DNA of 64,000 nt from Ureibacillus manganicus DSM 26584. Lineage in GTDB: Bacteria; Bacillota; Bacilli; Bacillales_A; Planococcaceae. The notes below the pieces were generated by a model. That model did not search any database, was not told the DNA's origin, and saw nothing but the letters and a program-made list of their open reading frames with translations. The DNA is taken from contig NZ_JPVN01000002.1 in the NCBI RefSeq assembly GCF_000772945.1, positions 62,001 through 126,000 on the forward strand. The letters run 5' to 3'. Shown piece after piece: positions 32,916-56,005 of the stretch; position 1 is the stretch's first letter, and the number at the start of each line of letters is the position of its first letter. Position numbers and translations under genes: made by a program.

Positions 32916-32999
32916 AGAAAAACACAACTCGACCCAAATAGGTCGAGTTGATGTCTTTTCTTATGCGGATTTCCGAAAAACTTATACTTTCCTATCCGC
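32916..32999. repeat. Expandable-loop hairpin element, copy A (84 bp, minimal form)
   Basis: Arms AGAAAA-ACA-CAACTCGACC and GGTCGAGTTG-A-TGT-C-TTTTCT pair over 19 bp with two single-base bulges and a six-base loop. A second stem follows, GCGGAT (32965-32970) with ATCCGC (32994-32999). The same two stems frame copies B (40740-40887) and C (55749-56005), where the loop is filled by extra hairpins. It lies between upp and the terminator of the EAL-domain gene. Confidence 0.85.
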
Positions 33000-33001
33000 T
33001 A

Positions 33002-33039
33002 AAAAAGATGTGACCAATTCTAATATGCCACACCTTTTT
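33002..33039 (-). terminator. Terminator after the EAL-domain gene
   Basis: AAAAAGATGTG pairs with CACACCTTTTT (one mismatch), four bases past the stop codon, followed by T residues on the - strand. It abuts repeat copy A. Confidence 0.75.
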
Positions 33040-33043
33040 ATAA

Positions 33044-35218
33044 TCATTCGAATTTGCGATTAAATTCCTCAACTGGTATCGGTTTATCAAACAAATACCC
33101 TTGACCTGTGTTACATCCAAGTTCTTTTAAAATTCTTGCCTGTTCTTCTGTTTCCACACCTTCAGCAACTGTTTCAATATTTAACGCATCGGCAATCTGT
33201 AAAATTGCTTTGACAATCGCATAAGTTCCTGAATCATGAAGTTTCATTGTAAAATTACGATCTATTTTCAGTTCAGAAATAGGTAGCTCTTGCAAATAAT
33301 TTAGAGACGAATAACCCATTCCAAAGTCATCAACACTAGAACTAAATCCCTTAGCATTTAGTTCATTGATAATTTGTCTAGCTTTCGGCAAATCAACAAG
33401 ACTCATGTTTTCTGTAATTTCTATAATTATATTTGTTGGGTCTGCATCATATTTTTTTACTAAATCTGAAAGTTGATCTATAAATCTAGGATGATAGAAA
33501 TGCTCTGGTGATATGTTAACTGCCACTGGTATAACTTTCTTTGAATCTTTTTTTCTATTTTGAAACCACTGTAATACTAATTCGATTACTTGTAAGTCAA
33601 TATCTCTTACTAGTCCCGTTTTCTCGGCTACCGCCATAAAATCTTGGGGTGAAATAAATCCAAGAGTTGGAGAATTCCATCTTGCTAGAGCCTCTATACT
33701 ACTAACTGTTCTATTCTTCAAATTAATTTTTGGTTGAAAATAGACTTGGATTTCCTTATTTTTAACTGCCTCTGTTAAATGACTACTAATTAATAAATTT
33801 TGTTTTAAGTTCCTATCCATCTCATTTTTATATTCCATAACTACGTTTCCAGCTTTACTTTTCGCCTTTCTAAATGCATTTTCAGCAAAACGGATTGAGT
33901 CATTATATGAAACTTTTTCATTAAATGGGGATGTCCCATTTTTTAAGGTTATATAGACTTGGTTGTTTTGAACGATAAATGGTGTTTCCACTAAAATTTC
34001 CATGATCGCTTCAAAATCCGGAATTTTTTCACCAACAATGCAATTAGTAAATGCGATGATTTTCGAACTAGAAAACCTTCCAATAAAATCTTCTTCTTTT
34101 CTGCGCATCATATTCATTTTTCTGCAAAGTTGTTTAAGTAATTCATCCCCCGCATCTCGACCATATAACTCTACAATTTCCGAGAACTCTGTTGGCTCAA
34201 TTATATGAATAAAACCAAATATTTGTCGTTGTTCTAATTCTCTTAATTTCTCGGTAAAGCCTAATCGATTAGGGATTCCTGTTGGCACATCATTATATGC
34301 AAGGTAAGAAATTTCCCTTAACTTTTGATCATATATATAGGCTAATGAAATTAAATCATTGATTTTATGTATAAATTCTTTGTATACAAAATCTTCTTGA
34401 GAAATGTTTCCGCTAAAGTGCATAAAAATAACGCCTATTCGATCATTTGCATGATTTTTTATAGGTACTATTAAGCTCTTTAATAATTGTTTTCCTTCAA
34501 CTATCTTTTTATGGTAAGCGTGTACTCTAATGTCTTTTGTGTCTTTAATCTCATAGGACTCCGACTGTAATATGTATTGTTTGTAATATTCAATTTCGGC
34601 CTTTCTTTCGATAATTATTGGTTCACTCAGCTCATTATTGTGTGACATAACCATTTGTAAACTATTAATATCATTATCATTTTTTATAATTATGGTAGAT
34701 ACTGTATTAAAATGGAACGCTTCATTTAAACCATTACATATCATTTGTAACTTTTTAAATAATGAACTTTCCTTTTCGATGGCTGTATAAATTTGTTCTT
34801 CTATAAAATGCAATGTATGGTCAAGGTGAAATTTTGAAAATTCTTCAAAAAGTAATAAGACTAAAATATTATTATCATTCTCAACGTGAAAGGGAATAGA
34901 TGTAACATCAACTAAAGAAGGTAATCCTCTTTTATGATTTAATAATATATCCACCTTTATAAGTTTACCGCTATGTATCATTTCTTCAAAAGTTTTTAAT
35001 TTTTTATTATTCTCATAAGAAAATAGTAAATTATATGTTTGATTTAACAATTCATTTTTTTCAAAGCCTGTCATATGGCAAAACGAGTCATTGACAAATA
35101 GTATTGAGAATTTGTCATTATTAACCTCTAAAAGTACATAACTTTTTTTGGACTGATCTCCTAGTAACTTAATTGATTGAAAGAGGGCCATTCTGTTTTT
35201 ATCAATTAGTTGTAGCAC
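33044..35218 (-). CDS. PAS-GGDEF(degenerate)-EAL cyclic-di-GMP phosphodiesterase
   Basis: The 724-residue soluble protein has, in order, a PAS domain (about 20-125, with FVNDSFCHMTGFEKNELLNQ), a GAF-like sensor (about 140-295), a GGDEF-like domain (about 300-455) and an EAL domain (about 470-720). The GGDEF active-site loop reads RFSSSKI where an active cyclase has GGDEF, so no diguanylate cyclase activity is expected; it may bind GTP as a regulator. The EAL domain keeps SIEALARW, VNISPEHF, ITEN, VDDFGMGYSSL, LKIDR and AEGVET, so c-di-GMP hydrolysis is likely. It starts at GTG with GGGAGGG upstream. It is an insertion relative to B. subtilis, between upp and glyA. Confidence 0.88.
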   Translation of the reverse strand: MLQLIDKNRMALFQSIKLLGDQSKKSYVLLEVNNDKFSILFVNDSFCHMTGFEKNELLNQTYNLLFSYENNKKLKTFEEMIHSGKLIKVDILLNHKRGLPSLVDVTSIPFHVENDNNILVLLLFEEFSKFHLDHTLHFIEEQIYTAIEKESSLFKKLQMICNGLNEAFHFNTVSTIIIKNDNDINSLQMVMSHNNELSEPIIIERKAEIEYYKQYILQSESYEIKDTKDIRVHAYHKKIVEGKQLLKSLIVPIKNHANDRIGVIFMHFSGNISQEDFVYKEFIHKINDLISLAYIYDQKLREISYLAYNDVPTGIPNRLGFTEKLRELEQRQIFGFIHIIEPTEFSEIVELYGRDAGDELLKQLCRKMNMMRRKEEDFIGRFSSSKIIAFTNCIVGEKIPDFEAIMEILVETPFIVQNNQVYITLKNGTSPFNEKVSYNDSIRFAENAFRKAKSKAGNVVMEYKNEMDRNLKQNLLISSHLTEAVKNKEIQVYFQPKINLKNRTVSSIEALARWNSPTLGFISPQDFMAVAEKTGLVRDIDLQVIELVLQWFQNRKKDSKKVIPVAVNISPEHFYHPRFIDQLSDLVKKYDADPTNIIIEITENMSLVDLPKARQIINELNAKGFSSSVDDFGMGYSSLNYLQELPISELKIDRNFTMKLHDSGTYAIVKAILQIADALNIETVAEGVETEEQARILKELGCNTGQGYLFDKPIPVEEFNRKFE

Positions 35219-35330
35219 ACATTTCCCTCCCTAAAATAAACATATTCATGAATATTTTACCTTCTTTAGTTCATATAAGTAAATACGTATTATGTAATAG
35301 AGCAAATGATACTTTTATATCTAGTAAAAT

Positions 35331-35388
35331 AATAAAAGGGTGTTCTCATAACGTTATTTATAATAACAATTTGAGTCACCCTTTTATT
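35331..35388 (-). terminator. Terminator after glyA
   Basis: AATAAAAGGGTG pairs perfectly with CACCCTTTTATT over 12 bp, and the 34-base loop has smaller pairs inside. T-rich sequence follows on the - strand. Confidence 0.75.
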
Positions 35389-35465
35389 AATCTAGCAGAA
35401 TGTTCAATTAAGTTTTTAATAGATTTAAAAATATCTAGCTAAATAAATAGCTGTATATTTATTGA

Positions 35466-36710
35466 TTAAGCATATAATGGGTATTTATCAGTTAGTGCTT
35501 TAACACGTTCTGCGGCTTCTTGTTTTGTTGCTTCATCTTCAGGATTTTTAAGAAGTTTTGCAATAATTAATCCAACTTCTTTTAATTCTTCTTCTTTGAA
35601 ACCACGGCTCGTAACAGCAGCTGTACCTAAACGGATACCAGAAGTTACAAATGGTTTTTCCTCATCATAAGGAATTGTGTTTTTGTTACATGTAATTCCA
35701 ACTTCGTCCAGAACATGTTCTGCCACTTTTCCTGTTAAGCCAACTGATTTAACGTTTACTAGTAATAAGTGATTATCTGTTCCGTCTGAAACAATTTTTA
35801 AACCTTCAGCAATTAACGTTTCAGCTAAAGCTTTTGCATTTTTCTTCAATTGAATTGTATATTCTTTGAATTCAGGTTGTAATGCTTCGCCAAATGCTAC
35901 AGCTTTTGCAGCGATTACGTGCATTAATGGACCACCTTGAATTCCAGGGAATACAGACTTATCAATTTTCTTCGCTAATTCTTCGTCATTAGTTAAAATT
36001 AATCCACCACGTGGTCCACGTAATGTTTTATGTGTTGTTGATGTAGTAAAATGTGCGTAAGGTACTGGAGATGGATGTTCACCAGTTGCTACAAGTCCAG
36101 CAATGTGAGCCATATCAACCATAAAGTAAGCACCAATTTCATCAGCAATTTCGCGGAATTTTGCAAAGTCAATTTCACGTGGGTAAGCTGATGCACCTGC
36201 AACGATTAACTTTGGTTTATGTTCTAATGCTTTCGCACGAACATCCTCGTAATCTATTACATTCGTATCTTTAGTTACACCATACTCTACAAAATTATAT
36301 AGAACACCTGAGAAGTTTACAGGTGAACCGTGTGTTAAGTGACCACCATGAGAAAGATTCATCCCTAGAACTGTATCCCCTGGTTGTAAAAGTGTGTGGT
36401 ATACAGCCATATTTGCTTGTGCACCTGAGTGAGCTTGCACGTTTGCAAATTTTGCACCAAATAATTCTTTTACACGATCACGAGCGATATTTTCTACAAC
36501 GTCAACGTGTTCACAACCACCATAGTAGCGTCTACCTGGATAACCTTCAGCGTATTTGTTTGTTAGAACTGATCCTTGTGCTTCCATTACTGCTTCTGAA
36601 ACAAAGTTTTCAGATGCGATCAATTCGATGTTTGCTTGTTGGCGTTTTTTCTCTGCTAAAATTCCTTCAAGTACAGCTTTGTCTTGCACCGCTAATTTTT
36701 CATAAGCCAT
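35466..36710 (-). CDS. glyA: Serine hydroxymethyltransferase
   Basis: GlyA interconverts serine and glycine with tetrahydrofolate and is the main source of one-carbon units. The 414-residue PLP enzyme has the lysine segment [15 protein letters not shown] (the Schiff-base Lys), the N-terminal SENFVSEAV and [15 protein letters not shown] motifs. ATG at 36710 (MAYEKL) is the normal family start; GGGGG lies about 12 bases upstream and the longer frame enters a hairpin repeat. It follows ywlG and is ended by a terminator. Confidence 0.96.
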
Positions 36711-36737
36711 TTTCACAATTTCCCCCTTTTTTGTATG

Positions 36738-36789
36738 TGCCTGGCACTCAAACAATTCGGAATTTTCCAAATCGCTTGAGTGCCAGGCA
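36738..36789. repeat. GGCAC hairpin between ywlG and glyA
   Basis: TGCCTGGCACTCAA (36738-36751) pairs perfectly with TTGAGTGCCAGGCA (36776-36789) over 14 bp; the 24-base loop contains AATTCGGAATT. It starts one base after the ywlG stop and ends 28 bases before the glyA start. Related hairpins occur at 37360, 38318 and 18713. Confidence 0.8.
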
Positions 36790-36790
36790 G

Positions 36791-37336
36791 CTATTCATAA
36801 ATAGCTCTTGGCCCACCAATAAGTTTCGGGCGAGTTTTCGCAACCGTTACAATTGCTTCACCAATCTGTTTCACCGAAGTTCTTAGTGGAATAGCAACCT
36901 CTTTTAAATGCATACCAATCAGTGTTTGTCCAATATCAATACCTGCATGAGCACGAATATGTTCAACCACGACAGGTTGATGCAATTGTGTATATGCATA
37001 GGCAGACATTGAACCACCAGCCTTTTTAACTGGAACCACTGTTACTGGTTCATAGCCATATTTCTCTGCAGCTTCATATTCTAATGTTAATGCTCGATTT
37101 ATGTGCTCGCACCCTTGAAATGCTAAGTAGATGTTATGTTTTTTTGCAAATTGTTGAAGTTCTTTATATAGAATTTCTGCAACTTCCATTGCACCTGCAG
37201 TCCCAATTTTTGAACCTAGCACTTCAGAAGTAGAACAACCAACGATAAAAAGCTGTTTTGGTTTAAGCTCCACTTGTTGTTCTAGTTCAGTTAATAGAAG
37301 TGCTATTTCATTTTGAATTACATCTAACGTTGCCAA
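36791..37336 (-). CDS. ywlG: TIGR01440/UPF0340 family protein YwlG
   Basis: The 181-residue protein contains the family segments [34 protein letters not shown] and [14 protein letters not shown], typical of YwlG, whose function is not established. It starts at TTG with AAGGAGGA upstream. The order rpiB-ywlG-glyA is that of B. subtilis. Hairpin repeats flank the gene on both sides. Confidence 0.9.
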
Positions 37337-37359
37337 TTTAACACTTCCTCCTTATGTGG

Positions 37360-37411
37360 TGCCAGGCACTCGAAGAATTCGCAATATCTGTAATTGTTTA
37401 AGTGCCTAGCA
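37360..37411. repeat. GGCAC hairpin between rpiB and ywlG
   Basis: TGCCAGGCACT (37360-37370) pairs with AGTGCCTAGCA (37401-37411) with one mismatch. Compared with the hairpin at 36738, the fifth pair is A-T instead of T-A. The loop contains GAATTCGC. Confidence 0.7.
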
Positions 37412-37417
37412 ATATAA

Positions 37418-37855
37418 TTAATCTTCTAGTTTTGAAATTTTCTCTACTCGGCGTGTATGACGTCCACCTTCAAAGTCTGTGTTTAGCCAAGTGGAAACAA
37501 TTTCACGGGCTAATCCAGGGCCGATTACTCGTTCACCCATTGCTAGAATGTTGGAATCATTATGATTTCTCGTTGCTTTCGCACTAAAAACATCATGAAC
37601 TAAAGCACAACGAATTCCTTTTACTTTGTTTGCAGCTATGGACATTCCAATTCCTGTACCACAAATTAAAATTCCACGTTCAAATTCTCCACTTGCAACT
37701 CCTTCTGCAACTGGTTTAGCAAAATCTGGATAGTCAACAGAATCTGTCGTTTGCGGACCGAAGTCTTCATATTGTATTTGAAGCTCGTCTAAAAGCTCCA
37801 TAATTTCTCTTCTTAAATTATTTCCACCATGATCCGATGAAATGGCTATTTTCAC
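37418..37855 (-). CDS. rpiB: Ribose-5-phosphate isomerase B
   Basis: RpiB interconverts ribose 5-phosphate and ribulose 5-phosphate. The 145-residue product has the N-terminal ISSDHGGNNLR, the catalytic-loop segment GILICGTGIGMSIAANKVKGIRCALVHD and the C-terminal NDSNILAMGERVIG typical of the RpiB/LacAB family. It starts at GTG with AGAGGT upstream. Position corresponds to B. subtilis ywlF. Confidence 0.95.
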   Translation of the reverse strand: MKIAISSDHGGNNLRREIMELLDELQIQYEDFGPQTTDSVDYPDFAKPVAEGVASGEFERGILICGTGIGMSIAANKVKGIRCALVHDVFSAKATRNHNDSNILAMGERVIGPGLAREIVSTWLNTDFEGGRHTRRVEKISKLED

Positions 37856-38317
37856 AAAGATTACCTCTTTTCATTCTATTTCTTCCTATAAGACTAATTC
37901 TTACATAAATAGAACTGTCTAAACATGAATTATTATATTCTAACGATGAAATAGATAAAAATTTTATACTATTATCAACAACAGTGTACCACTTTTTAAA
38001 TAAGATTAACATGAAATTCCGTTCTTTTTCTGAAAATATTTGAACAAAATCCGAATGTTATTTAACAACCTATATTAATCGTTCACTTTTTAGGCGAATA
38101 ATACTGCCTAACTGTACTGTTAATTCGGTTTTTACCCTTTTCAATCCTTTTTATATACATTGTTGAATTTAGGATTTGATTTAGAATCGCCTTCGAAAGC
38201 AGTACTTACTTTTATCTTAATTATAACATGTGATTTTTGTGAAATTGGATAAATTGAGATTTCACAAGGTTATCCGTATGCATTTACTGCCTGAATACTC
38301 AATATTATTTGAGTCCC

Positions 38318-38360
38318 TGGCACCAAATAAAAAAGCACCCAAGCTTAAAGTCGGGTGCCA
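38318..38360. repeat. Partial GGCAC-type dyad overlapping the chemoreceptor terminator
   Basis: TGGCACC (38318-38324) pairs perfectly with GGTGCCA (38354-38360). The terminator stem GCACCC/GGGTGC lies partly inside it, so the two structures are mutually exclusive. Confidence 0.5.
38325..38358 (-). terminator. Intrinsic terminator after the chemoreceptor gene
   Basis: GCACCC pairs with GGGTGC around a 12-base loop, and T residues follow on the - strand, 12 bases past the stop codon. Confidence 0.65.
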
Positions 38361-38369
38361 TGCATTTCT

Positions 38370-39677
38370 TTAGTTATTTCGGTCAAATTGTTGAATTACT
38401 TTGTAAAGTTGTTCTGATTGTAGTTTTAAATCACGTGATAGTGTTTCTATTTGTTCAATTGCATAAGCTTGTTCTTCTGTGGAACTGCGCACTTCTTGTG
38501 CACCTGCTGATGTTTCTTCTGCTATTGCTGCAACTTCTTGAGATTGATGGGCAGTTGTTTGAATATTTTCCATTTGCTTTTCGATTAGTCCTGAGATATC
38601 AACAACTGCATCCGCCATACCGTGAACATTTGTTGCCATACTTTCTACTAATCTCGTAGTCTCAGATACTTTAGCAGATTCTTTTACAGCAAACGAAACT
38701 TGCTCATTCATTTGTCTTACTACAATATTAACATTCTCTTGCATTGTCTTAATTAATGAAGTGATTCCCTGCACAGCTTTTGCACTTTCATCTGCCAAGC
38801 TACGAACTTCTTCTGCAACTACAGCAAAACCTTTACCATGTTCACCAGCACGAGCTGCTTCGATTGACGCATTTAAAGCTAAAAGGTTTGTTTGGGCTGC
38901 AATATCACCTACTAAACCAATAATTCTCTCAATCTGCTCTGCATTTTTCTCTAATTGATGTATATTTTTCAATGCTTCTTCATTGCCTGTTACGATTTGA
39001 CGAATACTATTGACTAAACCTTGAATCGATCCTATTGTTGTCTCTAACTCTTGAATAATTTGTTTAGATTGTGTCGCAGAGTTTAATGCTCGGGAATTTA
39101 CCTCACTAGCTAATTCCCGCACATCCTCAATTGCTTCTACTGTTTCTTGCACTGCGTCAGCTGACTGTTCAGCACCCAGTGAAATTTGACTAACTGTTGT
39201 TGCAATACCCTCTGCTTGTCTAGATGCTGCTTCAGTTTGTTCAGATAGATCAATAATTGTTGCATTTGTCTTTTGGAAATTTGTATCAATACTTTCTACC
39301 ATTTGACGCAAGTTTACTAGCATTAATTGAAATGCCTCGGCTACAGATTGAATCTCATCGCGTGTTTTAGGCATCTCAACATCTTGTCCAATTTTACCTT
39401 CAGCAACACTTTTGGCAGTAGCTTCTAATCGTTGTAATGGTTTCGTTATTACCACAGCTAAAATTGCAGCTAAGATACCAGACCATGCAATTCCCAATAC
39501 ATATGTAAGAATTTCAAATATTATCTTATTGGATAGAAAATCAAATTGAGCAAAAATATATGGATGTAAATAATGTATAAATACAAAACTAGTTGAGTAC
39601 GTTATTAGAGCTAATAGTGTTACAAATAAAACAAGTTTTTTCCTTAAACTAAATGTTTTATTACTATTGTGATTCAT
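38370..39677 (-). CDS. Methyl-accepting chemotaxis protein without a large sensor domain
   Basis: The 435-residue receptor has two membrane helices (about 14-34 and 48-72) separated by only a short loop, then a HAMP linker (about 73-127) and the cytoplasmic signalling coiled coil. The hairpin tip contains [43 protein letters not shown] (read in segments), which binds CheA and CheW. With no extracellular ligand-binding domain, it may sense a membrane or energy-state signal, or a partner protein. GGAGG precedes the ATG. It starts four bases after the ywlE stop, so it may be co-transcribed with ywlE. Confidence 0.92.
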
Positions 39678-39681
39678 TCGT

Positions 39682-40122
39682 TTAGCCTCCAGTGATTTTC
39701 GTTTCTAGTTCATCGATTAACTTCTTTAATTCTTGATAGGTTTGTGTGTACGTGTAAATATCTCCACCGAAAGGATCTGATACATCTTTTGAACTGTATG
39801 GAGTAACGTATTCTTTCAATGTAAATGTTTTTCCTACTGCAATTGGAAAACTACGTAGAATCATCTCTTTATGAGCTAATGTCATTGTTAAAATTAGGTC
39901 CGCCCATTCAATATCTTCAGGATTAACTTGACTAGTTTTATGATTAGTAAAGATACCTTCGTTAGCCAAAACTGCTCCTGAATTTTCTGAGATTTCCCCT
40001 CCCTCTAATGCGTATATTCCCGCAGATTTCACTTCGATTCCCTCAATATTTTTATGTTTTAAAATTGCTTCTGCCATCGGGCTTCGACAAGTATTTCCAG
40101 TGCAAACAAAATAAATGTTCAT
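39682..40122 (-). CDS. ywlE: Low-molecular-weight protein-arginine phosphatase YwlE
   Basis: The 146-residue enzyme has the phosphatase loop CTGNTCRS at residues 7-14, with nucleophile Cys7, and the general-acid segment SDPFGGD. The Thr between Cys and Gly (C-T-G-N) is the signature that favours phosphoarginine over phosphotyrosine in YwlE. It counteracts the protein-arginine kinase McsB, which marks proteins for ClpCP. The neighbours mntP and ywlC match B. subtilis. Confidence 0.92.
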
Positions 40123-40158
40123 GCTGCTATCTCACTCTTTCTCTCTTGTATATTTTGT

Positions 40159-40665
40159 TTATTGATAGTTAAGTAAGGCATAAATACTAAAAGCCATTAA
40201 TGATATCCCCGCGACCCACTTTAAGGATTTCCCTTTATATTTACGATGACCTTTTCTTGCTAGGGTTAAAGATATATAAGATAAGAAGAATGTCCAAATC
40301 CCTGCACTTACAATAAATAAATATTTTTGTAAATTAAGCATACCAAAAGAAATGCTTACTGAAAAGGTATCTAAACTAGCAGAAATAGCCAAAATTGAGA
40401 CAGGAATTGGATTTATTTGTCTATTTTGTGTAGAAAGAATTAAGTGTAATCCAATAAAAAACAATAGAATGCTCGAAATAATATTCGACCATTGCGTTAA
40501 AAATGCAACCATCATATTCCCTATTGTAAAACCAATAATCGGGAATATCATATGTAATAGGGCTGTCCAAAGTGCTAATAAAAATCGTTGCTTTACAGAT
40601 GGAAGCAATAAGTATAGTGCTACCACATCAAGTGCTACTATGAGGCCAATTAGTATCTCCTGCAA
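40159..40665 (-). CDS. mntP: MntP-type manganese efflux pump (YwlD)
   Basis: The 168-residue protein has about six membrane helices and a basic C-terminal loop (LARKGHRKYKGKSLKW), the layout of MntP. The second-half motif SLDTFSVSISFGM keeps the metal-binding Asp; in the first half only ALD is conserved and the rest of the usual MDAFAVSLG motif has drifted. Translation probably starts at TTG 40665, with AGAGG seven bases upstream. The location between ywlC and ywlE matches ywlD of B. subtilis. Confidence 0.8.
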   Translation of the reverse strand: MQEILIGLIVALDVVALYLLLPSVKQRFLLALWTALLHMIFPIIGFTIGNMMVAFLTQWSNIISSILLFFIGLHLILSTQNRQINPIPVSILAISASLDTFSVSISFGMLNLQKYLFIVSAGIWTFFLSYISLTLARKGHRKYKGKSLKWVAGISLMAFSIYALLNYQ

Positions 40666-40739
40666 ACTCGTCCTCTTTCCTTTGGTTTTATTATTACCAT
40701 ATTATGCGAAAAGGACATGCAATATCAGTAATTGAACTT

Positions 40740-40887
40740 AGAAAAACACAACTCGACCCGAATATTAATGAACAGAGCCTAAGTGCGCCACGTCGTGTGG
40801 CAACGGCTCTGTGACCAACGTCGTGTTGGCCTGAGTTGATGTCTTTTCTTATGCGGATTTCTGATAAACCTATACTTTCCTATCCGC
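40740..40887. repeat. Expandable-loop hairpin element, copy B (148 bp)
   Basis: The outer arms (AGAAAAACACAACTC at the left, GAGTTGATGTCTTTTCT at 40833-40849) match copy A, and the distal GCGGAT/ATCCGC stem is kept. The loop is expanded. ACAGAGCC (40772-40779) pairs with GGCTCTGT (40805-40812) and encloses GCCAC-GTCGT-GTGGC (40787-40801). A separate hairpin CCAAC-GTCGT-GTTGG follows (40815-40829). Both small hairpins share the loop GTCGT. It lies between mntP and ywlC. Confidence 0.88.
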
Positions 40888-40888
40888 C

Positions 40889-40924
40889 AAAGAAAAACCC
40901 CACCAGATTAATTATGGTGGAGTT
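40889..40924 (-). terminator. Intrinsic terminator after ywlC
   Basis: AACCCCACCA pairs with TGGTGGAGTT (one mismatch), followed by T-rich sequence on the - strand. It abuts repeat copy B. Confidence 0.75.
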
Positions 40925-40940
40925 AAAAATTTTTAACACA

Positions 40941-41981: not shown

Positions 41982-42095
41982 ACTGACACTTCCTTATTTC
42001 AATCGAGTTCACTCATACTTATTCACAACTTGTGGATAGATTATTCTGAAATGTGAATAAGTTTTTAATTCTTTGAATTTTCCAACTATTTAGAT

Positions 42096-42704: not shown

Positions 42705-42749
42705 AGTTTCATTCCTCCCTGACACCATGATTGTCAGAAAGGAATGTTT

Positions 42750-45654: not shown

Positions 45655-45855
45655 TTATTTAATACCGTATTTTTTGTTGAAACGATCAACACGTCCGTCA
45701 GCAGACGCGAATTTTTGACGGCCAGTATAGAATGGGTGACATTCATTGCAAAACTCAATTGCAATTTTTTCTTTTACTGAACCAGTTTCAAAAGTGTTAC
45801 CGCAAGAGCAAGTTACTGTTGCAGTTTTGTAATCTGGATGAATTCCTTGTTTCAT
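45655..45855 (-). CDS. rpmE: 50S ribosomal protein L31, zinc-binding form
   Basis: The 66-residue protein has the CxC...CxxC pattern (Cys16, Cys18, Cys36, Cys39) of zinc-containing L31, as in B. subtilis RpmE, rather than the cysteine-free YtiA type used under zinc limitation. A ribosome site GAGGAG precedes the ATG. It follows rho and has its own terminator. Confidence 0.97.
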
Positions 45856-46036
45856 ATTCGTTTTCTCCTCTCGCCCTGAACCATCCGGAACAGAGTTTAT
45901 TATTCCAACTGTGCCTTACATAACCCGAATATGCCAGTTACATATGCACACGTTACATACTTGAAAGATTATAGCAAGAATTATTTATTAATGCAAGATT
46001 AAATCCAATTGTAGATTTAACCAATTTCAATAGTTC

Positions 46037-47320: not shown

Positions 47321-47404
47321 TGCATGACTCCAGTCTTTTATTTTTTTGTTTTCTACACATTGGAATGTTCTAATTGTAGGGTTAAATGAAAGTTTTGTAG
47401 GAAG

Positions 47405-47437
47405 GATGTCTGATAACTATATATATTACCAGACATC
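47405..47437. other. Hairpin between glpX and rho
   Basis: GATGTCTG pairs perfectly with CAGACATC around a 17-base AT-rich loop, 13 bases after the glpX stop. It lacks a T-run on the - strand, so it may be a weak terminator or part of the rho leader. Confidence 0.4.
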
Positions 47438-47449
47438 ATATTTTAGAAG

Positions 47450-48412
47450 TTATTTGTCATATCTAGGTTTCTTATCGATATTGTGACGACCTTCGATAAA
47501 ACGAACTGTGCCCGTTTTTGCACGCATAACTAAGGAATTAGTTAAACAATATGCACCTTTATATTGAACACCTTTAAGTAATTCGCTATCAGTTACTGCA
47601 GTAGCAGCAAAAATAGCATCATCACCTTTTACTAAGTCTTCTAAGTAAAGAACTTTAGATACATCAATACCCATTTTTACGCAACGTTCAAGTTGTGCAT
47701 CATCTTCTGGAACTAATTTCGCTTGGAAATCGCCACCTAAACATTTTAAGGCAACCGCTGAAATGACTCCTTCTGGGGCTCCACCCATACCAAACATAAT
47801 ATCAATTCCTGTTTCATCAAAGGCTGTATTAATCGCGGCACTTACGTCACCATCTTGAATGAATTTGATACGTGCACCAGCTGCTCGTATTTCATCAACA
47901 ATTTTTTGGTGACGAGGGCGATCAAGAAGAACAGCTACTACGTCTGAAATGTTTTTATTTTTTGCTTTAGCTACTGCATGCAAATTCTCTGTAACTGAAT
48001 TGTTAATATCTACTTTTCCAGCTGCTTCAGGTCCAACTGCTAACTTATCCATATACATATCAGGTGCATTTAATAAGTTTCCACTGTCAGCAATTGCAAG
48101 TACTGTCATCGCGCCATTTGTACCTTTTGCAACGATATTCGTCCCTTCAAGCGGATCTACTGCAATATCAACATGTGGGCCACCATTACGAAGACCTAAT
48201 TCTTCACCGATGTAAAGCATCGGAGCTTCGTCCATTTCACCTTCACCAATTACAACTGTCCCGTGCATTGGTATAGTATCAAATAATGCACGCATCGCTG
48301 CGGTTGCTGCTTCGTCTGCTTCGTCTTTCAATCCACGTCCCATCCATTTTGCAGATGCAATTGCTGCTGCTTCAGTGACGCGGACAACTTCCATTGTTAA
48401 ACTGCGTTCCAT
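47450..48412 (-). CDS. glpX: Class II fructose-1,6-bisphosphatase GlpX
   Basis: GlpX hydrolyses fructose 1,6-bisphosphate in gluconeogenesis. The 320-residue product has the metal- and phosphate-binding motifs [22 protein letters not shown] and [14 protein letters not shown] of the class II family. GGGAGG precedes the ATG. It sits with fbaA, tal and murAB, so several genes here serve hexose- and pentose-phosphate supply. Confidence 0.95.
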
Positions 48413-48496
48413 GCTATATTTCCTCCCGATTCGGTGACCCGAATGTTTATGTCACACTCTATTGTAACATAAAACATTTTTAGAGATTATACAATT

Positions 48497-49777
48497 TTAT
48501 TCCTGTAATTCAAGGGAGCTAACCGCAATCGTTTCACGTCTAATGTTAGCACCTAAAGAATTTAACTTTTCGATTAAAGAGCTATATCCACGTTCGATAT
48601 GATGAATGTCGTGAATTACTGTCTCTCCTTCTGCAAGCAATCCAGCTAAAACTAGTGCAGCACCAGCTCTTAAATCAGTTGCAGTAACAGACGAACCATG
48701 TAGTATTGCTGGTCCTTGAATAATGGCAGTATTACCTTCTACTCTCGCATTTGCATTCATACGACGTAATTCATCGATATGTTTAAATCTTGCTGAATAG
48801 ATTGTATCTGTAACTTTTGATGTTCCGACTGCTTGAGTCATTAAAACGGAAAGTGGTTGTTGAATGTCTGTGGGGATTCCTGGATATACTAGTGTTTTTA
48901 CATCAACGGCCTGCAAAGAATCTGCTTTTGGAATGAAGACACTTTCTTCACCTTCAATTACCTTTACACCCATTTCTCGAAGTTTTGCAATTACTGCTTC
49001 TAAATGTAAAGGAATAATATTATCAATCGTAATACCATCTCCAATTGCAGCAGCCATAATCATAAATGTAGCAGCTTCAATACGGTCAGGAATGATCGTA
49101 TGTTTTGTCCCGTGAAGTTCATCTACTCCATCGATTCGAATGACACTCGTACCAGCACCTTTAATGTTCGCTCCCATATTTGTAAGGAGGGTTGCAACAT
49201 CAATAATCTCTGGTTCCTTTGCTGCATTTTCAATAACTGTACGACCTTTTGCTCGAACTGCTGCGAGCATAATATTAATCGTAGCACCAACACTTGCCAC
49301 GTCCAAATAAATTTTAGCACCTTTTAACTCTTCTGCACGCAAATAGATGGCACCGTGTTCATTCGTCACTTTTGCACCTAACGCCTCAAAGCCCTTAATA
49401 TGTTGATCAATTGGGCGTGGTCCTAAGAAACATCCACCCGGTAATCCTACAACTGCTTTTTTGAAACGCCCAAGCATTGCTCCCATTAAGTAATAAGAAG
49501 CTCGCAGCTTCTTAACGTTACCGTTTGGTAAAGGAATTGCAAGCATATTAGTTGGATCAACAATCATTTGTCCATTTTCAAATGTTACCTCTCCACCTAT
49601 TTCTTCCAATAATGCCTTCAACGTCCATGCATCAGCAATTTCAGGTATTCCCCCAATAGTAACTGAGGAATTTGCCAGAATTGATGCTGGAATTAACGCT
49701 ACCGCACTATTTTTGGCACCGCTGACTTTGATTGTACCCTTTAGACGATTTTCGCCAATGATTTTATATACATCCAT
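48497..49777 (-). CDS. murAB: UDP-N-acetylglucosamine 1-carboxyvinyltransferase MurAB (MurZ)
   Basis: Second MurA paralogue. The 426-residue product has the catalytic-cysteine loop [15 protein letters not shown] and the substrate-binding [14 protein letters not shown] near the N-terminus. It is clearly diverged from MurAA at 20772. The location between tal/fbaA and glpX/rho matches murAB (murZ) of B. subtilis, which is the dispensable copy there. A GAGGGAG ribosome site precedes the ATG. Confidence 0.95.
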
Positions 49778-50117
49778 AACGCGTTCTCCCTCGTAATTGG
49801 AAAGTTTCCCTTATTATAGTCAACTTCGGCAATTTTTGTATGTGTACCTACTAGTGAAAATTAGTGAATTGCCACAAAAATTTAGGTACGAAACGAGATT
49901 TCCTTACAATAGAAATACGAAATACATTTTCCAACTAAATTAGCTTGAAAGATGTGTCCCTTGACTATTTTCTTAGAGAATGTTACGACTAATCACCGGA
50001 GTTTGGTGATTAGTCTACTTCTCACTTATGCAGGTTAGAAAGTTGTAAACTTTTTAATCTACAATTAAATCCTCCTCATATCAGCTAAAAAATATGAGCA
50101 TAATCATTTTAACATTA
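49778..50117. other. Intergenic region tal-murAB with a perfect dyad
   Basis: The only feature I see is an 11-bp inverted repeat, GACTAATCACC/GGTGATTAGTC, around GGAGTTT at 49987-50015. It has no T-run on the - strand, so it looks like an operator or an mRNA hairpin rather than a terminator. Confidence 0.5.
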
Positions 50118-50768
50118 TTATTGACCTTCGCGCTTTTTCCAATCCGCTAAAAAGCCTTCAATACCTTTGTCAGTTAGTGGATGATGGAATAATTGTTTCA
50201 ATACCTTATATGGTGTAGTAGCGATGTCAGCTCCTGCTAAAGCAACATCAGTAATGTGTGCTGGATGACGAATTGAAGCGGCAATAATCTCTGTTTGGAT
50301 ATCATGAATCGCAAAAATGTCGGCAATAGTAGAAATTAGTTCAACTCCACTTTGACCTAAGTCATCTAAACGACCAACAAATGGTGAAACATACGTTGCT
50401 CCAGCACGAGCTGCCATTAAAGCTTGGTTTGCACTAAAAATTAACGTAACATTTGTTTTGATACCTTTTTCAGCAAAAAACTTACATGCTTTTAATCCAT
50501 CCGGAGTCATTGGTAATTTCACTGTAATATTAGGGGAAATAGCCGCAAGTTCAAGTCCTTCTTTAATCATCCCTTCTGCATCTAGCGAGATTACTTCACC
50601 ACTTACAGAACCATTTACAAGTTCTGCAATTTCACGCAGACGATCATGAAAAGAGATATTTTGTTCTTTTGCAACCAATGATGGATTTGTTGTTACTCCA
50701 GAAATAATCCCCCATGAGTGTGCTTCTTGTATTTCTTCAAAATTTGCTGTATCAATAAAAAATTTCAT
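50118..50768 (-). CDS. tal: Transaldolase, small TalC/FSA-type
   Basis: The 216-residue product has the Schiff-base lysine in [12 protein letters not shown], plus [13 protein letters not shown] at the start and [10 protein letters not shown] in the middle, typical of the short transaldolase/fructose-6-phosphate aldolase subfamily. Members of this size in Bacillales act as transaldolase. AGGAGG precedes the ATG. It corresponds to B. subtilis ywjH, between fbaA and murAB. Confidence 0.94.
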
Positions 50769-51095
50769 TTCGTATTTCCTCCTGCATATTATTGGAAAAC
50801 CTTACCTAAAAGAATAGAGAAGGCTGATTATTCTACCAGACACTTCTCCTCCAGAACATTCACCTTGATAAAAATGAATTTAGAAAAGCAGTGTATACGT
50901 ATCACATATTATTTACTTAATTGGATAAAATTATTAAGATAATTCGGCTTCTTTTTTCAGTTTAACCATTTTTATGGTTATACGTACATATGTGTGCAAG
51001 ATTTATATTAATACTGCTACTTGTATTTTAAATATAACATATGCTTACTAGGCCCTTTGTGTCAAAAGCCCACCGATTGTATTCCTTTTTATCAA
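50769..51095. other. Intergenic region fbaA-tal
   Basis: About 330 bases without a credible gene. A short perfect hairpin TAACCAT-TTTT-ATGGTTA lies at 50963-50980; nothing else stands out. Confidence 0.4.
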
Positions 51096-51950
51096 TTAAG
51101 CTTTTTGAGAGCTTCCAAATTCACGCATTTTGCCAATAACTGTTGCTTTTATTGCATCACGTGCAGGAGCTAAATATTTACGTGGATCGTATACTTTTTT
51201 GTCACTCTCTAATACTTCACGAATGACTTTTGTTGCTGCAATTTGGTTTTCTGTATTTACGTTAATTTTAGCTGTACCTAAAGAAATTGAACGTTGAATA
51301 TCTTTTGTTGGGATTCCTGTACCACCATGAAGTACTAGTGGAATATCAGTTAAATTTGAGATTTCTTCCATTTCAGCAAAACCTAAATTAGGTTCACCTT
51401 TGTATGGCCCATGAACAGACCCTAATGCTGGTGCTAAGCAATCAATTCCTGTTTGTTCCACAAGCGCTTTACATTCGTTAGGATTTGCATAGATAATACC
51501 ACCAATTACTCCGTCTTCTTCTCCGCCAACAGTACCTAATTCTGCTTCTACAGAAACGCCATTTGCATGTGCATATTCAACAACTTCTTTAGTAATTTTT
51601 ACATTTTCCTCAAATGAGTGGTGAGAAGCATCAATCATTACTGAAGTAAAACCTGCATCAACTGCTTCTTTACATTTATCAAAACTTGAACCGTGGTCTA
51701 AATGAATCGCAACAGGAACTGTAATTTTATAGCTTTCCATTAAACCTTTAACCATATGAACTACAGATATAAATCCGCCCATATATTTTCCTGCGCCTTC
51801 AGAGACACCAAGAATCACCGGAGACTTTTCTTCTTCTGCCGCTTGTAAAATTGCTTGAGTAAATTCTAAATTATTAATATTGAATTGACCAACCGCATAT
51901 CCTTCATTTTTTGCTTTAATTAACATTTCTTTCATTGATACTAATGGCAT
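51096..51950 (-). CDS. fbaA: Class II fructose-bisphosphate aldolase
   Basis: FbaA cleaves fructose 1,6-bisphosphate to the triose phosphates using zinc. The 284-residue product has the zinc ligands in [22 protein letters not shown] and [18 protein letters not shown] at 51950 ([14 protein letters not shown]) follows CAGGAGG; the 15-codon extension of the longer frame is rejected. It lies between spo0F and tal as in B. subtilis. A hairpin-repeat array occupies the spo0F-fbaA gap. Confidence 0.97.
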
Positions 51951-52007
51951 TATGAAAATCCTCCTGAAGATTGTTTTTTTTATTAAATATTCCATTTAAT
52001 ATTAGCA

Positions 52008-52278
52008 AAATCCCTCCACACTCACAAGTGTGGAGGGATTTCTGTGGCGAAAGCTTGCGACAGCCACAAAAAGAACCTTGTTAGTATTTTCAAAGAATTA
52101 GAACGATTATGTTTTGTCAGTCTCACAAGCCAAGAGACAACAGCCTTTCCTGTGGCGAAAGCATGCGACAGCCACAAAAAAAACTTTATTAGATTTTCCC
52201 AATATTTAGTATCATTTATCCTTTATCACACTCACAAGTGTGGAGGGATTTCTGCACCGAAAGTTTGCGACAGGTGCA
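52008..52278. repeat. Three-unit double-hairpin repeat with invariant loop
   Basis: Each unit has a CACAC/GTGTG-type stem and then a second stem. The second stems are TGTGGC/GCCACA at 52043-52068, the same at 52151-52176, and TGCACC/GGTGCA at 52253-52278. The 14-base loop is GAAAGCTTGCGACA, GAAAGCATGCGACA and GAAAGTTTGCGACA. In unit 3 three consecutive pairs are exchanged compensatorily. The first stem is a perfect 14 bp in unit 1 (52008-52041), GTCTC/GAGAC in unit 2 (52119-52137) and short in unit 3. Units are 108 and 102 bases apart, with unrelated sequence between. Confidence 0.88.
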
Positions 52279-52311
52279 AAAATACTTTTCAATATTACTT
52301 ATTTGCAATAA

Positions 52312-52686
52312 TTAGGTCATATCACTTTTTATCAAAACATTGTTCCTCACACTATCTATTAAATCATGTATATTAAATGGTTTTGTAAAAAAACATGAAG
52401 CGCCACGTTCAATAGCTTCTCGAATTACAGTCTGCTCAGAAAAACCAGACATCATAATAACAGGTATGTCACACTTTATAGCCTTTATTTTTCTTATAAT
52501 TTCTAGACCATCCATATCTGGAATTTTCATATCAAGTATCACACAATCAATTTCTTTACTTTCAGCTATACTGATTGCTTCAGCCCCATTAGTTGCAAGA
52601 TGAACTAGATATCCCTCTTTATTAAAAATTTCTTTTAATAAAATTCTTATACCTTGATGGTCATCTACAATTAATAGTTCTTTCAT
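52312..52686 (-). CDS. spo0F: Sporulation response regulator Spo0F
   Basis: A single-domain receiver of 124 residues, the length of B. subtilis Spo0F, the phosphorelay intermediate between sensor kinases and Spo0B. It has the acidic pair in LLIVDDHQGIRILL, the phosphorylated Asp in CVILDMKIPDMDG and the lysine in FFTKPFNIHD. The switch Thr is Ser (IMMSGFSEQ), and the segment after it differs from the B. subtilis TAYGELD. The Spo0F identity therefore rests on synteny (fbaA, ywjG, pyrG) and the first half. ATG at 52686 follows AGGTGATG. Confidence 0.82.
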   Translation of the reverse strand: MKELLIVDDHQGIRILLKEIFNKEGYLVHLATNGAEAISIAESKEIDCVILDMKIPDMDGLEIIRKIKAIKCDIPVIMMSGFSEQTVIREAIERGASCFFTKPFNIHDLIDSVRNNVLIKSDMT

Positions 52687-52916
52687 TACAATCATCACCT
52701 ATTCCCATTAATTATCAAGTTATTTATCTATTCACTTCCCTCAAAATTTGCATTTGAAACATTTATTTGTATATTTATAAATCTAGTTGTATTTCTTGTA
52801 GGTATTTGCACCCTATTTAATATTCTTTAATAGAATTACGATAGTACCGTAATACTTAATATGTTGATAGCCAAAATATATTGTTACTACAAATTGGTCA
52901 ATTATATCTAAACAAT

Positions 52917-52945
52917 TTTCCATTTTACTAATATATCTTTATAAT
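52917..52945 (+). promoter_or_regulatory. Candidate ywjG promoter
   Basis: TTTCCA, 17 bases and a perfect TATAAT, 21 bases before the ywjG start. Confidence 0.45.
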
Positions 52946-52965
52946 ACGGTTTAGAGGTGACGGAA

Positions 52966-53496
52966 TTGAAAATACTTACAACACAATTATCAGGTTTACT
53001 ACAGAGAATAGCTCAAAGTGAAGAAGAAGCAATTGAAGAAACAGCACGATTACTAGCTCAAGCATCAGTTGGTGAAGGAAAAGTTTACCTTGCTTGCTTT
53101 GATGAGTTAGAAGGTGTTGAGTTAAATGCGTTAAATGGTTCTGAACCATTTCATAAATTAGCAAAATGGACACCTGAAACCGTTATAAGCGACGTTGATC
53201 GAGTTTGTATTTTCACAAAAAGTTGTGAAAATGAGGCCGCACTTGCATTTGCAAAAAAGTTATCTGAAGAATTCATTCCTTTTGCAGCTGTTGCAAGTGA
53301 AAAAGCAGATGAAAATAATCCATTAAGTGAATTAGCATACACTTATATTTCTATGAAAATAAGAGGTGGTATTTTACCACATCCTACAAAATTAGGTGAA
53401 CGAACATTAATACCTCATTTACTTGGTGCGCTTTTTGTTTACGAAGCGATTAAATTGAACTATGATGAAATCATTTTTGATGATGACGAATTGTAA
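52966..53496 (+). CDS. ywjG: DUF2529 family protein YwjG
   Basis: The 176-residue product matches the DUF2529/YwjG family, whose fold resembles SIS sugar-isomerase domains. It has TTQLSGLLQRIAQSEEEAIEETARLL near the start and an ILPHPTKLGERTLIPHLLG segment. It is most likely started at TTG 52966 with AGAGGTGA upstream; a GTG at 52957 lies in that ribosome site. It is divergent from spo0F and next to pyrG as in B. subtilis. Substrate unknown. Confidence 0.85.
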   Translation: MKILTTQLSGLLQRIAQSEEEAIEETARLLAQASVGEGKVYLACFDELEGVELNALNGSEPFHKLAKWTPETVISDVDRVCIFTKSCENEAALAFAKKLSEEFIPFAAVASEKADENNPLSELAYTYISMKIRGGILPHPTKLGERTLIPHLLGALFVYEAIKLNYDEIIFDDDEL

Positions 53497-53530
53497 GTTC
53501 GATTCAATCATTCAATCTAGTAACAAGTAT

Positions 53531-53571
53531 GAAGGACATTTGAATTCGTTTCTCGGATTTGAATGTCTTTC
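53531..53571 (+). terminator. Terminator-like hairpin after ywjG
   Basis: An 18-bp stem (arms 53531-53548 and 53554-53571, with several G-U pairs) and a five-base loop. The T-run comes only at 53590, so termination efficiency is uncertain. It may be a degenerate relative of the 52-bp hairpin array that follows. Confidence 0.5.
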
Positions 53572-53614
53572 ATTGCGGAAATGTAGACTTTTTTTTAACA
53601 AGATCTTCATCCCG

Positions 53615-53939
53615 AAAAGGTCTTCATAAAGGCGATGAAGACCTTTTGAGCAGGAAAATCCACTAGAAATGGTCTTCATAACGGCGATGAAGACCTTTTA
53701 AGCCGGAATATCCACTAGAAAAGGTCTTCATAACGGCGATGAAGACCTTTTAAGCCGGAAACTTCACTAGAAAATGTCCTCATACGGATGATGAAGACAT
53801 TTTGAGCAAAAAAATCCACTAGAAAAGGTCTTCATAAAGGCGATGAAGACCTTTTGAGCGGGAAATTTCACTATAACAGGTCTGCATATTGATGATGAAG
53901 ACCTTTTGAGCTGGAAATTCTACTAGAAAACGCCTTCAT
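53615..53939. repeat. Exact 52-bp tandem array of hairpins (six full units and a partial seventh)
   Basis: Units begin at 53615, 53667, 53719, 53771, 53823, 53875 and 53927, always 52 bases apart. Each unit is a 13-base arm (AAAAGGTCTTCAT), a seven-base loop (such as AACGGCG), the complementary arm (ATGAAGACCTTTT) and a 19-base linker ending in CACTAG. Units 1, 3 and 5 have perfect stems. In unit 4 a G-C pair has become T-A, a compensatory exchange. Unit 6 has two mismatches and unit 7 loses its second arm. No spacers vary, so it is not a CRISPR array. Confidence 0.92.
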
Positions 53940-54065
53940 TAATATGCCTTTAAAATACATTGTGTCCGTAACCATAACCCTTCGCACTTGTTCTTTAGAA
54001 TGTCGTTCATCACTTTATCCAACCATATTTGATAAATTTCTTACCACTTAATCAAGTGATCAATA

Positions 54066-54099
54066 TAAAAAACCTCCAAGCACAGTACACTTGGAGGTT
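54066..54099 (-). terminator. Intrinsic terminator after pyrG
   Basis: AACCTCCAAG pairs perfectly with CTTGGAGGTT around a nine-base loop, followed by T residues on the - strand. Confidence 0.85.
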
Positions 54100-54115
54100 C
54101 TCTCGTATAACTAAA

Positions 54116-55717
54116 TTATTGCTTATTATTAAATGCAGCACCTACGAACTCACGGAATAATGGTTGTGGACGTTGTGGGCGAGATACAAGTTCTGGATGG
54201 AATTGACATGCTATAAAGAACTTTTTCTCAGGTAATTCAATAATTTCTACTAAACGATTATCTGGGCTTGTACCAGAGAATACTAGTCCTTCTGCTTCCA
54301 TAGCTTCACGGAATTCATTATTGAACTCGTAACGGTGACGGTGACGCTCGTAAACTAACTCATCATTATAAGCTTCCATCGCGCGAGAACCGTCTTTTAA
54401 TTTACATGGATATAACCCTAAACGCAATGTTCCACCTAGGTCTATCTCATCGCTTTGATCTGGTAAGAAGTCAATAATTGGGTAAGGTGTTTCTTTGTTT
54501 AACTCTGTTGAATGTGCTCCTTGTAGCCCAAGTACATTACGTGCAAATTCAATTGTTGCTAATTGCATACCTAAACAAATACCAAGGAACGGGATGTCGT
54601 TTTCACGAGCATATTGGATTGCAGAAATCTTCCCTTCTATTCCACGATCACCGAAGCCACCAGGAACTAAAATTCCATCTGCTCCTTGCAATAACTCACT
54701 CACGTTTTCCGCATTCACATGTTCTGCATTAATCCAATCTACTTCAATATCAGAATCATATACATAACCAGCATGTTTTAATGCTTCTACTACTGAGATG
54801 TATGCATCTTGAAGTTCAACGTATTTTCCAACAAGTGCAATACGAGTTTTATTTGAAAGATTTTTCACCTTATGAACAAGTTCTTTCCAATCTGACATAT
54901 CCGCTTCAGGTGCTTCAATCCCAAAATGTTCTAAAACAATATCATCAAAATCTTGAGCATGTAAGTTCAATGGAATTTCATATAAATGTTCAGCATCAGC
55001 AGATTCAATAATATCGCGAGCTGTTACGTCACAGAATAATGCTAATTTTTCTCTCATTTCTTCTGAAACTGGTTGTTCAGTGCGCACTACTAATATATTT
55101 GGTTGAATTCCTAAAGAACGTAATTCTTTAACAGAATGTTGTGTTGGTTTAGTTTTTAATTCACCTGCAGCTGCGATATATGGAATTAACGTACAGTGAA
55201 TGTACATTACATTTTTATGTCCTAAATCTGATCTCATTTGACGAATTGCTTCAAGGAAAGGTAGTGACTCGATATCACCAACAGTACCGCCAACCTCTGT
55301 AATTACGATATCTGCATTTGTTTCACGACCTGCTCGTTGAATGCGGTCTTTAATTTCGTTTGTTACGTGTGGAATTACTTGAACTGTTTTTCCGTTGTAA
55401 TCGCCACGACGTTCTTTTGCAAGTACTGATTGATATACACGTCCAGAAGTAACCGTAGAATGTTTCCCTAAGTTAATGTCAATAAAGCGTTCATAGTGAC
55501 CTAAGTCTAAATCCGCTTCAGCACCATCATCTGTTACGAAAACTTCACCATGTTGATATGGACTCATTGTACCTGGGTCAATATTTAAATATGGATCGAA
55601 TTTTTGAATTGTTACCTGTAAACCACGATTTTTTAGCAATCTCCCTAATGAAGATGCGACAATTCCCTTCCCTAATGATGAAACTACTCCACCTGTAACA
55701 AAAATATACTTTGTCAT
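54116..55717 (-). CDS. pyrG: CTP synthase
   Basis: PyrG aminates UTP to CTP with glutamine-derived ammonia. The 533-residue product has the N-terminal synthase domain ([35 protein letters not shown]) and the C-terminal class I glutamine amidotransferase domain ([17 protein letters not shown], with the catalytic Cys, and FHPEL). GAGGAGG precedes the ATG. In B. subtilis pyrG is controlled by a CTP-sensitive attenuator in its leader; here I see no canonical terminator close to the start, and the leader contains repeat copy C. Confidence 0.97.
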
Positions 55718-55748
55718 TTATTTTTTCCTCCTCTTATACGAATAAACT

Positions 55749-56005
55749 AGAAAGACACAACTCGACCCAAATTAATGAACAAAGCCAAAAAGCGCCACTT
55801 GTCGCTGAGAACGCTACTTATCCCCGAAAACGCCACGTCCTGTGGCATCGGTGATATGACCAACTTCCTGTTGGCCTCTGTAGCATCAGCGACATGACCA
55901 ACTTCCTGTTGGCCTCTGTGGCAATGGCTTTGTGACCAACATCCTGTTGGCCTGAGTTGATGTCTTTCTTATGCGGATTTCCAAAACCGATACAATAGAA
56001 TCCGC
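55749..56005. repeat. Expandable-loop hairpin element, copy C (257 bp)
   Basis: Outer arms AGAAAGACACAACTC and GAGTTGATGTCTTTCT. The distal stem GCGGATT/AATCCGC is one pair longer than in A and B. In the loop ACAAAGCC (55779-55786) pairs with GGCTTTGT (55926-55933); in copy B the same stem is ACAGAGCC/GGCTCTGT, a compensatory change. Enclosed are GCCAC-GTCCT-GTGGC and three copies, at exactly 38-bp spacing (55856, 55894, 55932), of a module with ACCAAC-(T/A)TCCT-GTTGGC. It lies in the pyrG-rpoE gap. Confidence 0.88.

Follow-up and report, generated by a model that had tools for sequence, protein, structure and literature searches.

A terminator-side two-hairpin repeat of Ureibacillus manganicus that carries nested Bacillaceae-1 (RF01690) modules in its loop

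In a 64,000-nucleotide stretch of the Ureibacillus manganicus DSM 26584 genome (contig NZ_JPVN01000002.1, positions 62,001 to 126,000 of the forward strand; hereafter the window), three copies of a structured element, A, B, and C, turned out to share a two-hairpin repeat of 82 to 86 bp without a name (the frame), into whose loop modules of Rfam family RF01690, Bacillaceae-1 RNA, are inserted in B and C. The analysis established a family of such frames with covarying stems, a terminator preference, exact empty sites, and near-identical copies, together with the RF01690 identity of the inserts and their nesting. We consider it fairly probable that the frame is a short, non-autonomous, mobile, terminator-side repeat whose loop carries RF01690 as cargo. 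A broader proposal, put forward here tentatively, is that RF01690 is not a stand-alone small RNA (sRNA) and could instead be a self-nesting mobile module that colonises hairpin loops (in a terminator-homing repeat, a T-box leader, and the flank of a 5S rRNA gene) and then its own loop, its carrier frame being a mini-element that homes to terminators without duplication and is mobilised by an enzyme to which no such activity has so far been ascribed. In what follows, individual loci and genomes are designated by L and G numbers.

The copies lie at 32916-32999 (A), 40740-40887 (B), and 55749-56005 (C), with sequences as described in the initial annotation of the window. A covariance model of the frame, R1, built from 11 aligned simple copies, places the left end at TTAG, i.e., at 32914 in A and 40738 in B. 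Copy A (32914..32999, plus strand; 114.4 bits) folds as the simple frame with two hairpins and no insert, copy B (40738..40887, plus strand; 78.8 bits) bears a single RF01690 module in its hairpin 1 loop, and copy C (55747..56006, plus strand), delimited by sister-genome comparison and its fold, combines the frame with three nested RF01690-type modules. The frame-model score of C is only 26.7 bits (match 55931-56005) because the insert splits the frame, and C therefore stands outside the 88-copy alignment used below. The inserted and outer stems previously named were located by a stem check in all three copies, with 100% pairing of AGAAAGACA/TGTCTTTCT (9 nt) and ACAAAGCCA/TGGCTTTGT (9 nt) in C, CAACTCGACC/GGTCGAGTTG (10 nt) in A, and ACAGAGCC/GGCTCTGT (8 nt) in B, and GCGGAT/ATCCGC is present in A, B, and C within longer imperfect arms. 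The z scores of the folds were -7.0 for A and -5.1 for B as single-stranded DNA (plus strand) and -8.7 for C as RNA.

The recurrence of the frame in the genome exceeds chance: a pattern allowing up to 3 mismatches occurred 12 times, compared with 0 for the reversed control, and exact matches to the pattern were present in Lysinibacillus yapensis, Ureibacillus chungkukjangi, and U. acetophenoni. The initial annotation could assign no named RNA family, which holds for the frame but not for the inserts. The frame has no Rfam match above the gathering score (best permissive match, 30.1 bits versus a cut-off of 55), and a named RNA was rejected for it since the permissive matches were weak only; nor was a description of it found in the titles, abstracts, and passages searched in the openly accessible literature. 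One further candidate copy in the window, at 20530-20615 (29.7 bits), was rejected, since its sequence looks like that of an ordinary terminator.

The inserts of B and C match RF01690 over positions 1-67 of its 67 (cut-off, 35 bits), the module of B lying at 40763..40829 on the plus strand (72.5 bits). The 38-bp tandem modules noticed earlier in C are real, being present in 3 copies at 55840-55953 with 82 to 100% identity. The fold of C resolves into three concentric modules, each inner one seated in the P2 loop of the outer one, and the right halves therefore align as three 38-nt direct repeats, which by repeat search and fold are the 3' halves (P2', P1', and the P3 hairpin) of the modules (55840..55953, plus strand). 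According to the stem check and fold, the outer module spans 55779..55933 (P1 arms 55779-55787 and 55925-55933) and the middle one 55800..55894 (P1 arms 55800-55808 and 55886-55894), both on the plus strand; the RF01690 match of C, at 55809..55874 on the same strand (38.7 bits; fold), lies over the innermost module, with P1 arms at 55820-55826 and 55849-55855.

Nesting was not confined to C. Searched for as a literal pattern, a nested junction was present in 12 of 17 regions examined and was constant across hosts, reading GCNNCTT on the left and GG(C/T)CTCT(G/T)TNGC on the right. The interrupted arms pair as GCGAC/GTCGC in L016, GCAAC/GTTGC in L041, and GCCAC/GTGGC plus GCTAC/GTAGC in C, and are mismatched in L013 (GCGAC, GTGGC); among uninterrupted loops RTCCT and RTCGT predominate, TTCCT occurs in some, and ATCAT occurs once. 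Frames hold no module (A), one (B and L234), two (L017), or three (C). At L017 (G000) the frame has two modules, and the same locus in G001 (L046), a sister genome from the window's genus, holds a simple frame; the U. acetophenoni locus L035 aligns to L017 in the same way as does L046. This difference may reflect a change in either direction or two separate insertions at one preferred target. Since the composite-frame junctions are common to B, C, L012, L234, and L036, i.e., to several loci in two species, the composite frame may spread as a unit. The composite copy of U. acetophenoni in L036, at about 2640-2850, contains additional sequence, CATCTGTCGCTTCTCTTTCGATGCA, within the P1 3' arm.

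The same junctions bear on a different origin of the nested look, namely, replication slippage or template switching among small hairpins rather than the insertion of whole modules, which we regard as a possibility of some weight, if a doubtful one. Left and right junction counts are equal in 9 of the 12 regions with junctions, and one junction type is fixed across hosts, both of which speak against slippage; the mismatched counts in L015 (0 left and 1 right) and L042 (1 and 0) and the imperfect tandem repeats in C speak for it. The most unbalanced nest is that of L040 (G000:C5:124000-125300), where four interrupted left half-modules face one right junction, an imbalance that points to slippage. 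RF01690 also occurs in hosts unrelated to the frame, and slippage alone therefore cannot account for its spread there.

These hosts were delimited by reading of the surroundings and comprise, besides the present frame, several unrelated ones. In the window's own genome RF01690 had 26 matches, all over the cut-off, and it was present at least once in 18 of 25 genomes of the genus. A second host is a repeat around GCCTCCGGCGGATGCCACAGATTTT (L001, L002, L004, L008, L009, and L020), a third is a repeat around AAAAGCGGAGAACGC (L014, L016, L018, L019, L041, and L042), a fourth is represented by L015 and L043, and a further one by L003/L007. In L010, RF01690 lies directly 5' of a 5S rRNA gene on the same strand. 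The host range apparently includes a T-box leader as well: in L005, RF01690 at 1501-1567 lies inside a T-box leader match at 1269-1671, which scores 59.5 bits, under the cut-off of 93 (E = 2.3e-12 for the 701 bases searched), and is absent at the gathering level. Mean identity across eight hosts is 68% for the RF01690 cores and 48% for the 60-nt flanks, the latter the same as for shuffled flanks; only the flank figure is independent, because the cores were chosen by the model. New here is that RF01690 occurs in several unrelated hosts and nests in its own P2 loop; the titles, abstracts, and passages searched in the openly accessible literature describe no nested Bacillaceae-1.

Three further arrangements of RF01690 were observed. 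In L008, L009, and L020 a different insert, CTCCTGCGGTGC(G/C)GTAGCTCCTCGTCGCAAAA..., occupies the P3 hairpin loop, so this loop too accepts inserts. Two near-identical RF01690 copies 185 nt apart are found in G023 (L299), in a duplicated leader-like stretch, and the second precedes a sequence that by eye is T-box-like, GGTGGAACCGCGGG. Five copies of equal score in G022 (at 306816, 378128, 652251, 1152035, and 3209301) belong to a longer, closely similar repeat.

RF01690 consists of two hairpins with RUCCU loops. Its loops in C read GTCCT, TTCCT, TTCCT, and ATCCT, and those in B read GTCGT twice, departing from RUCCU; on the reverse strand the loops of B read ACGAC. The reverse complement of RF01690 was proposed to bind CsrA (PMC4333381), for which GGA would be expected in the loops of the transcribed strand. 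In the T-box and 5S hosts, RF01690 shares the strand of the host RNA, which gives its RNA the RUCCU sense. As far as the sequences indicate, these same-strand hosts and the ACGAC loops of B would weaken the CsrA-binding proposal for the present copies. RF01690 (Weinberg et al. 2010, PMC2864571) is listed as an sRNA gene, whereas here it is found as cargo in the loops of the frame and of other hosts, nested in itself. It has been catalogued as an sRNA without a function since 2010; were it a loop-invading module, its spread and conserved loops would be simply explained, and its presence within a T-box leader would illustrate one route by which structured RNAs gain domains.

We then considered the distribution of the frame itself. 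The covariance search for further copies that had been suggested for the window yielded many in the genus and family: R1 matched 19 of the 25 genus genomes (E <= 0.01), with 39 rows in the window's own genome at this threshold, some of which are the two strand readings of a single place; 44 of 200 family genomes (E <= 1e-5), spread over 7 of 19 genera; and 2 of 398 class-sample genomes, namely the window's own and one other from its family. The family and class searches used stricter filters and were less sensitive, returning 18 and 11 rows, respectively, in the own genome instead of 39. For the analysis of covariation, 88 rows were drawn from 96 chosen sources rather than from every genome match, the opposite-strand rows of the palindrome having been removed by a threshold of 1e-6. 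Of the cells in this alignment, 91.9% pair; 20 of 25 pairs show changes on both sides (shuffled mean, 11.6; slid alignments, 8 to 13), and the covariation score was 0.263 (shuffled, 0.121; slid, not above 0.062), so that covarying pairs are far above both controls, with the reservation that the alignment was fitted to the model and structure is therefore favoured. When only the 11 seed copies were considered, covariation was weak, at 2 of 25 pairs.

The covariation suggested earlier was borne out, and selection on folding is possible, but the mobile-DNA look of the copies offers another reading: the hairpins may be kept for the mobility of the DNA. Besides selection on folding, the arms of a palindrome can be equalised by arm-to-arm copying. 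In two identical copies of G038, a genome of another genus (L245 and L246), the second hairpin departs from the consensus by paired changes that perfect the palindrome, which may represent hairpin-templated repair.

The frame occupies a characteristic position. On the terminator-sense strand it starts with G(C/T)GGAT directly after a T-run, and a terminator-like hairpin with a T-run, of -10 kcal/mol or lower, was detected at the GCGGAT end of 49 of 84 copies and at the other end of none (0/84), compared with 11 of 252 shuffled flanks in which the T-run was retained. With a limit of -8 kcal/mol, the hairpin in G038 was present at the GCGGAT end of 19 of 21 copies and at the other end of 1 of 21. 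The 84 copies are the 88 rows minus 7 units of two arrays and L051 (dropped because it repeats the match of L033); C, L012, L013, and L017, with scores lowered by their inserts, were added by hand. The 84 are not all independent, as some flanks are common to sister species (e.g., L196, L215, and L228). Cruder detectors, now superseded, gave 23/82 at the GCGGAT side and 2/82 at the other (score 14) and 26/84 and 2/84, with 27/252 for shuffled flanks (-6). In the window, the GCGGAT end of A adjoins the terminator-like hairpin and T-run of an EAL/GGDEF gene (33001..33040, minus strand; -11.3 kcal/mol), and that of B adjoins those of a Sua5-type gene (40888..40922, minus strand; -13.1 kcal/mol), both genes being identified by Pfam. 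Among the matches listed for five genomes, 61 of 70 copies have the orientation expected for their replichore, with the origin assumed at the contig start and the terminus taken as a dif-like site in G013 and as the contig midpoint in the other four; such a site was found in 1 of 6 genomes searched.

The constant position and orientation beside terminators, together with the strong covariation and the occupied sites common to sister species (judged by flank, e.g., L196/L215/L228), could also be expected of a functional RNA, such as a back-up terminator or a 3'-end stabiliser, spread and retained for its fold. We consider this unlikely, since occupancy is patchy, the frame is confined to one family in the sample, and most copies occupy the interval from a terminator to the next gene, which little read-through should reach; the young, near-identical copies in G038 argue in the same direction.

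The evidence on mobility comes from empty sites and from these young copies. Site C is empty in five sister genomes (G001, G022, G016, G011, and G015), in which the left flank runs into a AAGAAAAGC tract; these 5 of 24 sister genomes were checked base by base, four aligned to the joined flanks of the window and the fifth (L167) printed beside them. For site B, a clean empty site could not be placed in relatives, as the divergence is too great. G038 has 22 places among the matches listed, of which 21 were used (3447349 was left out); four of these copies are identical over 82 bp, and their right flanks differ, as do their left flanks save those of L242 and L244. In L268 of the same genome a frame copy sits inside an IS200-type element, a second copy of which (L261) is empty, and comparison of the two indicates an exact insertion with at most 1 duplicated base. 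No flank repeat of 3 to 8 nt that could be a target-site duplication was found in any of the 21 G038 copies, and a 2-nt repeat occurred in 4 of 21, compared with 79 of 420 mismatched pairings. The AGAAA present at each end of C was rejected as such a duplication: the left AGAAA(A/G) stays constant despite other right flanks, and none is present in G038. By eye, the frame ends TTAGAAAAACAC and ..CCTATCCGC show no complementarity and hence no terminal inverted repeats, so the frame lacks two traits of a classical miniature inverted-repeat transposable element, target-site duplication and terminal inverted repeats. Copies also form head-to-tail arrays without a spacer, of 5 units in L075 and 3 units in L090. 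To judge from these sequences, the frame copies behave like mobile DNA and look recently mobile.

Several observations weigh against a mobile, terminator-directed frame. The -10 kcal/mol criterion leaves 35 of the 84 copies without a terminator, including C (-0.9), and L084, L092, L213, and L226 by eye adjoin a ribosome-binding site instead. Gene orientation could explain much of the replichore bias (P = 0.01 versus an assumed 75%). Several copies occupy sites common to sister species and so are not independent. Site A in the sister genome G001 is without the frame but with TTTTAGGAAAACA, which resembles the left end of the frame, and because this sequence is kept, the site may be the remnant of a deletion and not a site that was never filled. 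The similar left flanks of L242 and L244 may hide a second repeat at the left boundary. Finally, no mobilising enzyme was found, PF01797 being absent from the many-copy genomes G000, G008, G133, G138, and G101.

Under the favoured explanation, intrinsic terminators would be the target of the frame, which would insert immediately behind their hairpin and T-run, in one orientation and without duplicating the target site. The far end of the frame on the terminator-sense strand, TTTTTCTAA, is T-rich too, so that a new copy could land behind an old one and head-to-tail arrays would result. The loop of the longer hairpin would serve as a permissive cargo site, in which one subfamily carries an RF01690 module; further modules would then have entered the P2 loop of the first one, C being an example. 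The substrate of the enzyme would be a single strand in its folded state, probably at the replication fork, and modules would grow by insertion into RTCCT loops, with slippage helping. The junctions agree with mobilisation of either the IS200/IS605 or the group IIC type, and the frame was not found to belong to either group.

That the frame is a stripped IS200/IS605 or REP-like (repetitive extragenic palindromic) element, mobilised by a Y1 (HUH) transposase acting in trans, would agree with the absence of a target duplication, the two hairpins, the T-rich flank on one side, the replichore bias, and the three full-length-looking Y1 genes in G038. We nevertheless regard it as improbable: PF01797 (Y1_Tnp) was found in 14 of 25 genus genomes, being absent from G000 and G008, and in 5 of another 8 genomes with high or middle copy numbers, being absent from G133, G138, and G101, and of the 20 Y1 loci compared, only L268 contains a frame copy, which interrupts the element rather than forming its ends. 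After this comparison, the frame ends were rejected as ends of Y1 elements. Two G038 copies lie 3 kb apart, and a transposase between them was likewise rejected, as the two open reading frames (ORFs) there by eye resemble a carbonic anhydrase and an ATPase.

A group IIC-type reverse transcriptase or intron machinery, for which terminators are also a target, is a more doubtful candidate still for inserting the frame. Group II introns begin with GUGYG, and the frame's 5' end, GCGGAT or GTGGAT, departs from this. At the gathering level, Rfam gave no group II intron, although no search for IIC introns was made across these genomes, and a permissive search with copy A gave only a plastid intron family at 13.0 bits versus 140. 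In favour of such machinery are the junctions of the frame without duplication and its insertion after intrinsic terminators in the above proportions (49/84; G038, 19/21); terminator targets and fork-primed mobility are described for IIC introns in PMC4424553. The frame shares the former with them, but has only 82-86 bp and no ORF or recognisable intron domain.

Among known systems, the BOX elements of streptococci are the closest to the frame in working plan, as composites with exchangeable inner modules. BOX elements (PMC3049150), like the frame, are composite small repeats with fixed ends and inner modules that vary in number, and in Streptococcus suis two kinds of ends enclose the same boxB modules; boxB copies are tandem, whereas RF01690 modules are nested, and BOX has terminal inverted repeats, of which none were seen in the frame. 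The REP and IS200-IS605-derived repeats (PMC3733652) are small extragenic palindromes like the frame, whose lack of a target duplication is a further likeness; the frame differs in having no constant GTAG or CGTC tag and no consistent Y1 transposase. Bcr1, Bant-1, and Bhal-1 of Bacillus, compared by description (PMC2267715), are dispersed stem-loop repeats, and Bant-1 (72 bp) and Bhal-1 (74 bp) are similar to the frame in size; in the class sample, all matches to the frame model fell within its own family. A tiny terminator-homing element without target duplication would be another route to harmless insertion, for which G038 offers a young, testable case of frame mobility.

Apart from the frame and its cargo, the minus strand of the window at 45865-45895 matches the L31-Firmicutes ribosomal protein leader with 34.7 bits, slightly over the cut-off of 33.3.

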